Virus record (IMG/VR): IMGVR_UViG_3300030101_002058 | Span: 1 to 21,099 of that record | DNA: 21,099 nucleotides | Direction: 5' to 3' (one strand) | From: a virus | Part shown: in pieces, positions 11,114 through 13,893 of the stretch | How positions within the stretch are numbered: position 1 is the stretch's first letter | Layout of the letters: the number at the start of each line of letters is the position of its first letter | Translations under genes and position numbers: made by a program | Notes under the pieces: generated by a model | Database searches by the model: none | What the model saw: the letters and a program-made list of their open reading frames with translations, nothing else | Told to the model about the DNA's origin: nothing

Positions 11114-12193
11114 ATGGCAGCAATCTCAATAACTAGAGACGCTAGTAATAATTGGCAGAAGTTCTGCGAGTGGGTTACAAGCACAAACAACAGACTATAT
11201 GTAGGTTGGTTTGGTGTTTTAATGATCCCTTGCTTACTAGCTGCAACTACATGTTTCATACTCGCTTTTATCGCAGCACCGCCTGTAGATATAGATGGCA
11301 TACGTGAACCAGTTTCCGGTTCTTTAATTTATGGAAACAATATTATATCTGGAGCAGTTGTCCCTAGCTCCAACGCAATAGGACTGCACTTTTACCCTAT
11401 CTGGGAAGCCGGCACTTTGGACGAGTGGCTATATAACGGTGGACCATATCAACTTGTTGTCTTCCACTTCTTAATAGGAGTAGCAGCATACGCTGGTAGA
11501 CAATGGGAACTTTCATATCGCTTAGGTATGAGACCTTGGATCTTTGTAGCATACACAGCTCCACTCTCAGCAGCTTTAGCGGTTTTTCTCGTTTACCCTT
11601 TCGGGCAAGGGAGTTTCAGTGATGGTATGCCTCTTGGTATTTCTGGTACTTTTAACTTCATGTTCGTATTTCAAGCAGAACACAATATCCTTATGCATCC
11701 GTTCCACATGCTCGGTGTTGCTGGGGTATTCGGTGGATCTCTTTTCGCTGCTATGCACGGAAGTCTTGTTACTTCCTCGCTTATTCGCGAGACGACTGGT
11801 TTGGAGTCACAGAATTATGGTTATAAATTTGGTCAGGAAGAGGAGACTTATAACATCGTTGCAGCTCATGGCTACTTCGGGAGATTAATTTTCCAATATG
11901 CATCTTTTAACAATTCTCGCGCTCTACACTTTTTTCTTGGTGTATGGCCAGTCGTGGGCATATGGTTAACCTCAATGGGTATATGCACAATGGCATTCAA
12001 CCTTAATGGTTTTAACTTTAACCAGTCAATTAGTGACGTTAATGGAAAGATTGTCCCAACATGGGCTGACGTTCTTAACAGAGCTAACCTTGGCTTTGAA
12101 GTAATGCACGAGCGTAACGCTCACAACTTCCCTCTTGATCTAGCATCAGCGGAGTCAACACAAGTTTCATTAATCGCCCCAGAAATTGGTTGA
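11114..12193 (+). CDS. psbA: Photosystem II D1 protein
   Basis: A complete, uninterrupted 359-residue D1. Numbering matches the standard exactly: Q130, redox tyrosine Y161, manganese-cluster ligands D170, E189, H332, E333, D342 and A344, Y161 partner H190, P680 ligand H198, QB/iron ligands H215 and H272, and QB pocket S264. The C-terminal extension after A344 ([15 protein letters not shown]) is the part removed by CtpA during maturation. Q130 rather than E130 is the form usually called low-light D1. Phage D1 replaces host D1, which turns over quickly after host transcription stops, and keeps electron transport running. Translation starts directly at the hli stop. No intron is present, unlike some cyanomyovirus psbA genes. 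Confidence 0.99.
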
Positions 12194-12279: not shown

Positions 12280-12411
12280 ATGGCAGAGAATCAAAGACAT
12301 TGGAAACAAACTACAACAGGTAGAAAAAATATACCTGTTGAAGAGTTTAACAAAACAACTAAAAAAACTAAAGAGCCTCAATCATTAGAGGAAGCTCTTA
12401 CAGGAGAATAG
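12280..12411 (+). CDS. Small hypothetical protein between psbA and riboswitch
   Basis: A 43-residue frame gives a basic, polar product (RHWKQTTTGRKNIPVEEFNKTTKKTK) ending in an acidic helix (SLEEALTGE). The codon use matches the neighbours, and the frame fills the space between the psbA 3' hairpin and the riboswitch at 12421. There is no clear Shine-Dalgarno. The product is unrecognised. A small gene at this site is plausible for this phage group, but the evidence is only frame, composition and spacing. Confidence 0.55.
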   Translation: MAENQRHWKQTTTGRKNIPVEEFNKTTKKTKEPQSLEEALTGE

Positions 12412-12418
12412 AAGCCAC

Positions 12419-12480
12419 GTCCGTTCATCCCTTCTGGGACGCATGACTCCTAAGCATGGAACGGGGCTTAGGTACTGAGG
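12419..12480 (+). promoter_or_regulatory. Glutamine-II riboswitch (Downstream-peptide motif)
   Basis: P1 is CCGTTC (12421-12426) with GAACGG (12459-12464). P2 is TCCC-TTCT-GGGA (12428-12439). P3 is CATG (12442-12445) with CATG (12455-12458), around the loop ACTCCTAAG. Seven bases of that loop region, CCTAAGC (12449-12455), are perfectly complementary to GCTTAGG (12466-12472) just 3' of P1, which is the pseudoknot of this class. The conserved ACGCATGACTCCTAAG and TTAGGTACTGAGG segments match the motif as I remember it. The class binds L-glutamine and is found in marine cyanobacteria, their phages and marine metagenomes upstream of tiny genes. The Shine-Dalgarno GAGG (12477-12480) lies right after the pseudoknot, so ligand binding is expected to hide the ribosome site of the gene at 12487. 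Confidence 0.88.
12477..12480 (+). promoter_or_regulatory. Shine-Dalgarno GAGG under riboswitch control
   Basis: GAGG is 6 bases before ATG 12487 and 4 bases after the 3' strand of the riboswitch pseudoknot, the arrangement for translational control. Confidence 0.75.
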
Positions 12481-12486
12481 TTAATT

Positions 12487-12585
12487 ATGTCTCCAGTAGA
12501 ATTGCAAGCTCGACTAAAAGAGCAACAAAATTTCAAAAGAGAAATGAAACTAAAGTATCGTGGCATCACATACACAAAAAGATAA
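12487..12585 (+). CDS. Riboswitch-controlled 32-residue peptide (DUF4278-like end)
   Basis: The tiny basic protein has an N-terminal amphipathic helix (VELQARLKEQQNFKREM) and ends MKLKYRGITYTKR. The MKLKYRGxxY part (residues 20-29) matches the start of cyanobacterial DUF4278 proteins. It follows the glutamine-II riboswitch at the distance typical for 'downstream peptides' and has a Shine-Dalgarno under its control. In cyanobacteria, glutamine riboswitches control small basic glutamine synthetase inactivating factors such as GifB; whether this peptide acts on glutamine synthetase is inference only. Its last codons and stop fall in the 5' strand of the next predicted RNA helix (GATAA, 12581-12585). 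The different-frame frame 12456-12638 in the same place is taken as a shadow. Confidence 0.75.
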   Translation: MSPVELQARLKEQQNFKREMKLKYRGITYTKR

Positions 12586-12630
12586 TCGGTAAAGCCGACT
12601 GGGAGGTGCAAGTCCTCCCTTATCAATTTG
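12575..12630 (+). ncRNA. Candidate structured RNA: three-way junction with a T-loop-like hairpin
   Basis: Closing stem GATAA (12581-12585) pairs with TTATC (12620-12624), extended across an AA/AA internal loop by CAAA (12575-12578) with TTTG (12627-12630). Inside, hairpin TCGGT-AAA-GCCGA (12586-12598) and hairpin GGGAGG-TGCAAGT-CCTCCC (12601-12619) abut the closing stem with only CT between them. The 7-base loop TGCAAGT follows the T-loop rule (U at 1, A at 5; C and A as in tRNA T-arms). No tRNA can be built around it. I do not recognise a known RNA family. Function is unknown. Confidence 0.5.
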
Positions 12631-12640
12631 GCTTTTGACC

Positions 12641-12711
12641 CTTACGAGGATACTCATCAGCCGTCATGACGGTGGGATAGACCACAACAACTAATGAGTC
12701 GCGTAAGACTC
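12641..12711 (+). ncRNA. Candidate structured leader RNA upstream of the capsid gene
   Basis: CTTACG (12641-12646) pairs perfectly with CGTAAG (12702-12707), and ACTCAT (12652-12657) with ATGAGT (12694-12699), separated by an AGGAT/CG internal loop; the enclosed part holds the palindrome CCGTCATGACGG (12661-12672) and GTGG/CCAC (12672-12685). A second hairpin, GAGTC-GCGTAA-GACTC (12696-12711), uses the same 3' strand and excludes the first fold. Such alternative pairing is typical of regulatory leaders. It is not a classic terminator, since the T run is separated from the hairpin by GCAAC. The ATG of the leader frame at 12694 is within the first fold. Confidence 0.45.
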
Positions 12712-12762
12712 GCAACTTTTCGTACGACAAGACAAGTAAATATACCTTTAATTTTTAACTGA
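12694..12762 (+). CDS. Possible leader peptide upstream of the capsid gene
   Basis: A 22-codon frame starts within the candidate leader RNA and stops at TGA, 3 bases before the capsid ATG. The product would be basic and hydrophobic (MSRVRLATFRTTRQVNIP...). The capsid gene itself lacks a Shine-Dalgarno sequence, so termination-reinitiation from this frame could load ribosomes on it. The start also has no good ribosome site. It may be chance. Confidence 0.3.
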   Translation: MSRVRLATFRTTRQVNIPLIFN

Positions 12763-12765
12763 AAA

Positions 12766-13893
12766 ATGGCTAATGCTAATCAAGTTGCTTTAGGTAGAAG
12801 TAATCTATCTACAGGCACAGGTTACGATGGTGCAAATGATAAATATAATTTGTACTTAAAATTGTTCAGTGGAGAAATGTTCAAAGGCTTCCAGCACGAG
12901 ACTATCGCAAGAGATCTCGTCACAAAGAGAACCTTAAAGAACGGCAAATCTCTACAGTTCATCTATACAGGTCGCATGACCAGTTCGTTCCATACTCCTG
13001 GAACTCCTATATTAGGAAATAGTGACAAAGCTCCTCCAGTCGCAGAAAAAACAATTGTAATGGACGATCTATTAATCAGTTCAGCTTTTGTTTATGACTT
13101 AGATGAAACACTTGCACATTACGAATTGAGAGGAGAAATATCTAAGAAAATTGGATATGCTCTTGCTGAGAAGTATGACAGATTAATCTTCCGTTCAATT
13201 ACACGCGGAGCTAGATCTGCTTCTCCAGTATCTGCAACAAACTTTGTAGAACCTGGCGGAACTCAGATCAGAGTTGGATCAACAACTAACGAATCTGATG
13301 CTTTCAACGCTGGAAATCTAGTAAACGCATTCTATGATGCTGCTGCGGCTCTTGACGAAAAAGGAGTCAGCTCTCAAGGGAGATGCGCGGTGCTTAACCC
13401 TAGGCAATATTATTCCCTCATACAAGACATCGGTTCTAACGGTCTAGTAAACAGAGACGTACAAGGTACTGCTTTACAAGGCGGTGGCGGCGTTGTCGAG
13501 ATCGCTGGAATACACATTTACAAATCTATGAATATTCCATTCTTAGGTAAGTATGGTGTTAAGTATGGCGGTACAACAGGTGAGACAAGTCCTGGAAATA
13601 CTGGTGATTTCATTGGACCTACACCTGAGAACGCTAACGCAACAGGCGGAGTTAACAATGACTACGGTACTAACTCTGAGTTAGGTGCTAAGTCTTGCGG
13701 ACTTATCTTCCAAAAGGAAGCTGCTGGTGTTGTTGAGGCAATCGGACCACAAGTTCAAGTAACTAATGGTGACGTTTCGGTGATTTACCAAGGTGACGTT
13801 ATATTAGGTCGCATGGCTATGGGTGCAGATTACCTAAACCCAGCTGCTGCTGTTGAACTTTATGTTGGTGCTTCTGCTCCATCAGGGTTCTAA
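12766..13893 (+). CDS. Major capsid protein, T7 gp10-like
   Basis: The 375-residue HK97-fold capsid protein (T7 gp10A has 344-345) forms the head shell. T7-like segments are YLKLFSGEMFKGFQ near residue 30 (T7 LFLKVFGGEVLTAF), NGKSLQFIYTGRM near residue 63, KTIVMDDLLISSAFVYDLDETLAHYELRGE (residues 94-124, T7 KVITIDGLLTADVLIYDIEDAMNHYDVRSE), and the C-terminal GDVILGRMAMGADYLNPAAAVEL. A glycine-rich insertion near residues 268-300 (GGTTGETSPGNTGD) may be a surface loop. Translation start at ATG 12766 has no Shine-Dalgarno but lies 3 bases after a leader frame stop. A strong terminator follows 15 bases after the stop, as Tphi follows gene 10 in T7. No frameshifted gp10B-like extension is visible. 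Confidence 0.96.
   Translation: MANANQVALGRSNLSTGTGYDGANDKYNLYLKLFSGEMFKGFQHETIARDLVTKRTLKNGKSLQFIYTGRMTSSFHTPGTPILGNSDKAPPVAEKTIVMDDLLISSAFVYDLDETLAHYELRGEISKKIGYALAEKYDRLIFRSITRGARSASPVSATNFVEPGGTQIRVGSTTNESDAFNAGNLVNAFYDAAAALDEKGVSSQGRCAVLNPRQYYSLIQDIGSNGLVNRDVQGTALQGGGGVVEIAGIHIYKSMNIPFLGKYGVKYGGTTGETSPGNTGDFIGPTPENANATGGVNNDYGTNSELGAKSCGLIFQKEAAGVVEAIGPQVQVTNGDVSVIYQGDVILGRMAMGADYLNPAAAVELYVGASAPSGF

Follow-up and report, generated by a model that had tools for sequence, protein, structure and literature searches.

What would a glutamine riboswitch and a 32-residue peptide do just ahead of the capsid gene of a cyanophage? The locus lies in a 21,099-base stretch of a virus record, here called the window, which is a fragment of a marine T7-like cyanophage near P-SSP7. 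Judged from its open reading frames (ORFs) and homology, the window encodes a primase/helicase, DNA polymerase, ribonucleotide reductase, portal, scaffold, hli, psbA, major capsid and tail tube proteins; a tRNA search of the window found none. The psbA gene for the photosystem II D1 protein (11114..12193, + strand, as all features below) is the upstream neighbour of the locus. A 43-aa ORF (12280..12411) lies in the interval between psbA and the riboswitch, and the T7 gp10-like major capsid protein, 94% identical to that of P-SSP7, is encoded at 12766..13893. The order psbA, riboswitch, capsid gene is common to the window, P-SSP7 and most relatives, and it agrees with the placement of the locus in a phage late region by the original prediction, which had been made from the letters alone.

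That prediction had also called a phage-borne glutamine-II riboswitch and suggested an Infernal search with Rfam. Scanning the whole window with cmscan gives RF01704 (Glutamine-II) at 12419-12472, with 48.3 bits against a gathering cut-off of 33 and an E-value of 3.8e-9, and the class call stands; the only other match, MIR827, is far under its cut-off. Read from the sequence, the aptamer (Downstream-peptide, type 2; 12419..12472) consists of two hairpins and a pseudoknot, instead of the P1, P2 and P3 first described. P1 pairs UCCC with GGGA (12428-12431 with 12436-12439), and P2 pairs CCUAAGC with GCUUAGG (12449-12455 with 12466-12472). The core is formed by CGCA (12440-12443) and CAUGGAACGG (12455-12464). 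The pseudoknot joins CCGUUC to GAACGG (12421-12426 with 12459-12464) and is extended by one U.G pair (12420/12465). It had been described as seven perfect bases: the seven pairs are there, but "perfect" is slightly generous, since six are Watson-Crick and one is U.G. The Shine-Dalgarno sequence and tiny basic gene expected behind it are found as GAGG at 12477-12480, 6 nt 5' of the ATG, and 32 codons.

The hairpins are kept by compensatory change. Relatives were gathered from viral contigs by a DNA pattern that required the pseudoknot core; four viral matches to it (L032, L078, L084 and L121) are due to chance, lack a YRG ORF and were excluded. When 111 distinct phage aptamers are parsed by stem, 95-100% of them have standard pairs at the four outer positions of P1 and at positions 1-5 of P2 (numbered from the loop), and nearly every one of these positions takes two to six pair types. 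In a 24-sequence alignment, 55 cells are changed on both sides, where shuffles give 14.5; the pairing is lost when the partner strand is shifted. The pseudoknot core is unvarying among the 111 aptamers, which is no evidence for it because the search pattern demanded the core. The isolate SS120-1, found outside the pattern, has CGUUU/AAACG, a compensatory change in the pseudoknot. Such changes, which the original prediction had named as the test of itself, are therefore present in P1 and P2, and for the pseudoknot in SS120-1. Two variants stand apart. S-CBP3 (L135, 1291-1348) has an altered aptamer core (GACGGGTTG replacing GACGCATGA, GCTGGAACGC) and retains the YRG peptide; a decayed switch and a changed ligand are candidate readings. 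Four contigs (L362, L372, L377 and L395) have a longer P1 loop of about 35 nt with no obvious ORF inside.

The gene behind the aptamer (12487..12585, with ATG at 12487 and stop at 12583-12585) encodes MSPVELQARLKEQQNFKREMKLKYRGITYTKR, a basic peptide with nine K/R against three E. It matches Pfam PF14105 (DUF4278) with 27.1 bits against a cut-off of 25.3, in keeping with the small basic product with a DUF4278-type YRG motif that had been noticed at first. The best stretch spans 12 of the 57 profile positions; the profile carries a YRG motif near both ends, and the phage peptide has one. The window peptide thus shares the DUF4278 repeat without being a full domain. Among 19 scanned phage and host peptides, 15 match DUF4278 in Pfam at E ≤0.1. 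YRGxxY is encoded behind every true viral aptamer with enough downstream DNA, and its reading frame begins 12-31 nt (mostly 23-27) after CATGGAACG in the viral relatives. The phage peptides are mostly 13-42 aa long, with a mode of 17; the window peptide is one of a longer class, which has additional residues at the N-terminus (MSPVELQARLKEQQNF...).

A comparison of 87 distinct codon windows shows no change of Y, R, G or the second Y, while their codons vary (TAT/TAC, CGT/CGC, GGC/GGT); pN/pS is 0.009 for the YRG codons and 0.38 for the six-residue core. The invariance of the YRGxxY letters is partly by construction, because this pattern was used to find the ORF. Independent of it are the synonymous changes and the conservation of further residues, V or I after the G and T followed by K or R at the end; no comparable pattern appears in the other reading frames. 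By the low pN/pS of its YRG codons and its Pfam match, the peptide is a real coding sequence.

As the DNA pattern is biased, we also made a set of 80 contigs fetched by the capsid protein and scored them with R1, a model of the phage aptamer. Where at least 350 nt precede the capsid gene, R1 matches 51 of 64 contigs; where at least 2 kb do, it matches 27 of 35. Among 13 capsid loci lacking the switch, none has the peptide except one at a contig edge. The joint gain or loss of switch and peptide speaks for the peptide as the regulated output; the two make up a single cassette of T7-like cyanophages, probably within the late operon. When the whole records of 22 cyanophage isolates are searched, 13 have RF01704 above cut-off, with one match per positive genome; P-SSP7, P-SSP2, 9515-10a, NATL1A-7, S-RIP2, S-CBP1, S-CBP4, SS120-1 and S-TIP28 are among them. 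The match is weak in S-SBP1 and S-CBP3, and none is found in S-B28, DSL-LC07, S-SRP01, S-CBP2, S-CBP42, P60, Syn5 or a roseophage relative. Any trace of the cassette is missing from about 20% of the capsid contigs and from 7/22 isolates. The cassette is placed, in nearly all viral contigs, behind psbA, hli or scaffold and ahead of the major capsid gene. The proximity to psbA seen at first holds, but a link specific to psbA does not, as hli, scaffold or another small gene also adjoins upstream; what stays constant across relatives is that the capsid gene lies downstream. Cassette and capsid gene are about 1.2-1.4 kb apart, with several genes between them, in 9515-10a, NATL1A-7 and others.

Between the cassette and the capsid gene lie two further RNA elements. 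The first (12581..12624) folds like part of a tRNA, with an acceptor-like stem GATAA/TTATC, a small hairpin and a T-arm GGGAGG-TGCAAGT-CCTCCC (fold z -3.17), and overlaps the stop codon of the window peptide. An acceptor stem of 5 bp or more is formed in 83% of relatives, compared with 41% for shuffled pairs. A real tRNA-Gly or tRNA-Leu occupies the same slot in two contigs (L002 and L267), and a complete tRNA stands in front of the leader in NATL1A-7 and L267. Over 188 contexts, the front of the leader carries a T-arm with acceptor-like stem in 89 and a CACCTCA hairpin in 94.

The second element is a structured leader of the capsid gene (12628..12686; 61 bits with our model R2), made of a stem with an inner UACG hairpin, the palindrome CCGTCATGACGG and the hairpin GTGG-GATAGA-CCAC. 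Plain MAFFT mis-registered its hairpins of unequal length, so the stems were parsed by script and R2 was built from a gap-free subset. R2 has a single match in each of the testable capsid contigs (72/72), ahead of the capsid gene. Among the isolates, its E-value is below 0.001 in 16/22; five more distant isolates, which include several without the riboswitch, match with falling scores (E 0.0016 to 0.13). The non-cyanophage control loci give one match, at E 0.33. Changes on both sides of the leader stems number 97 cells against 24 in shuffles in a model-fitted alignment, which leans towards structure, and 34 against 11 in a gap-free alignment of 16. An independent parse of 142 cores, which chose the best hairpin of each sequence, finds the inner hairpin fully paired, with several pair types at each position. 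The window's leader core alone folds no better than shuffles (z -0.95).

No Rfam family matches the leader stretch at E up to 10, save chance matches far under cut-off. The idea that the leader is a Syn5-type RNA polymerase promoter (ATTGGGCACCCGTAA) finds no support, as the window holds no match to that sequence within three mismatches. The palindrome (CCGTC-TA-GACGG) has a two-base loop and cannot close in RNA, so it may act as DNA or as an RNA dimer contact. The region may serve as a processing signal that frees the capsid mRNA. Between the leader and the capsid ATG, positions 12718-12733 hold a perfect palindrome, TCGTACGA, and many relatives have one of different sequence in that place (AAACGTTT, CAGCTG, AGCGCT). 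The capsid gene has no clear Shine-Dalgarno sequence.

One branch of relatives carries a gene inside the aptamer. In S-SBP1 (L130, 1106-1315) and five contigs of the capsid set (L360, L365, L373, L381 and L391), the R1 match is split by an insert: the P1 loop holds an ORF of 54-60 aa with its ATG in or next to the 5' strand of P1 (AUCUAUG). The aptamer itself supplies the final codons and the stop, GAC GCA UGA, in or beside the conserved core GACGCAUGA, and the YRG peptide follows. Searching with the nested protein found 79 contigs, of which 76 (L405-L480) were examined. In 68/76, a 54-aa ORF ends at GACGCAUGA or GACGCAUAA and is followed by the YRG peptide; the other eight share its start and seem to be longer by one codon, as spelled out for L416 alone (GAC GCA UAU UGA). 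The nested ORF has a pN/pS of 0.17, and the codons GAC GCA are fixed in 50/50 distinct ORFs. No Shine-Dalgarno sequence precedes it. Its product belongs to phrog_628, a homologue of which is free-standing between uvsY and uvsW in S-SKS1; PDB and Pfam offer at most weak cytochrome b5-like and other chance matches. Translating the nested ORF must open P1 and the core. Translation and aptamer folding may then be mutually exclusive, which would make this a two-output riboswitch. A narrow literature search found no such arrangement.

Behind riboswitches of this class, host Prochlorococcus and Synechococcus encode proteins with mostly two or three YRG repeats (for example MTLIYRGQKYVQNKEAAKKQHNELTYRGKAYTS). 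The phage gene, with its single YRG behind the same riboswitch, therefore reads as a reduced copy of the host repeat, and a host origin seems plausible. Two host relatives point to nitrogen: Yfr6 is reduced on nitrogen depletion (PMC1242208), and PMM1846, like Yfr6, is tied to nitrogen supply (PMC6316151). We consider it probable that the phage type 2 glutamine riboswitch turns on a YRG micropeptide mimicking the host DUF4278 repeat when glutamine is plentiful. By analogy with tested members of the family (PMC6316151), glutamine binding would stabilise the aptamer and turn on expression. The mode would be translational, as the Shine-Dalgarno sequence and ATG stand directly behind P2. When the window leader is folded, the Shine-Dalgarno sequence is paired whether the aptamer is left free or forced, so no Shine-Dalgarno/anti-Shine-Dalgarno switch mechanism is visible by folding. 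The peptide may act in trans on the way the host controls its nitrogen; the simplest route would be to compete with the YRG proteins of the host or to join them, and glutamine synthetase is among the candidate targets. Since most relatives keep switch and peptide just ahead of the capsid gene, the virus probably reads the nitrogen state of its host during particle assembly.

The same position invites a reading in cis, in which glutamine-dependent translation of a tiny ORF into the tRNA-like fold and capsid leader tunes capsid expression and the peptide itself hardly matters. Nearly all relatives have the cassette ahead of the capsid gene, and the window peptide's stop codon falls inside the acceptor-like stem. 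However, selection acts on YRG as amino acids and leaves synonymous change free, the cassette is separated from the capsid gene by the several genes (about 1.2-1.4 kb) of 9515-10a, NATL1A-7 and others, and the leader is kept where the cassette is missing; we regard cis action as unlikely. A functionless passenger captured from the host could explain why a fifth of relatives do without the cassette, yet across very diverged phages the RNA shows compensatory changes, the peptide is under purifying selection and the position is stable, and this account is very improbable.

A special case of the trans reading would make the peptide an inactivating factor for glutamine synthetase, a phage counterpart of IF7/IF17. 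The peptide is small and basic, and the DUF4278 motif occurs also in IF17, which is under a type 1 glutamine riboswitch (PMC6316151). The likeness to Gif proteins drawn at first is weak, however: the general Pfam and NCBIfam profiles give no Gif match to the window peptide, and many phage peptides are merely 13-17 aa. The DUF4278 part of IF17 promotes stability and is reported dispensable for its inhibitory function (review PMC6316151). With that part dispensable and the inhibitory part unmatched in these general profiles, inhibition of glutamine synthetase is a minority option, possible and not supported, which we rate somewhat below cis action. Mimicry of host YRG proteins remains our best guess for the peptide.

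Taken as a whole, the stretch before the capsid gene could be a composite RNA control region, a reading we put forward tentatively: a riboswitch with its YRG micropeptide, a tRNA-like processing arm and a leader that maybe defines the 5' end of the capsid mRNA, with a nested phrog_628-like gene making a two-output switch in one branch. The leader and tRNA-like arm are present in the window, and the nested form occurs elsewhere. Nitrogen limits picocyanobacteria. The cassette is a small, synthesizable object with which to test whether phages sense or steer the nitrogen state of their hosts, and it offers a route to what YRG proteins do. With its nested gene, the riboswitch aptamer would also serve to end a coding sequence, which would be unusual. 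The capsid leader is a candidate for an RNA family, and the marine viruses that carry it are abundant.

Glutamine riboswitches are already known from T4-like cyanophages, where they are mentioned in PMC9602691 and PMC9964418, and the methylophage Melnitz has one together with a tmRNA (PMC9004378); the passages of these three reports drawn on here describe no YRG peptide cassette. As given there, the riboswitches of S-CREM1 and Melnitz are glnA-type and belong to phage families other than T7-like cyanophages. Three things are added here: the riboswitch-YRG cassette, which T7-like cyanophages carry as a near-standard element, the form of it with a nested gene, and the capsid leader. With RF01704 (Weinberg 2010, PMC2864571; type 2, PMC6316151), the phage copy shares all core nucleotides, both hairpins, the pseudoknot and a short ORF immediately downstream; it differs in its phage genome, its fixed place before the capsid gene and a joining region shorter than that of the host copies examined. 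With host DUF4278/Yfr6-type peptides (the 33-aa Yfr6 ORF, PMC1242208; PMM1846, PMC6316151) the phage peptide has YRGxxY and the riboswitch class in common. In contrast to the two or three repeats of most host DUF4278 proteins, the phage peptides carry one, in as few as 13 residues.
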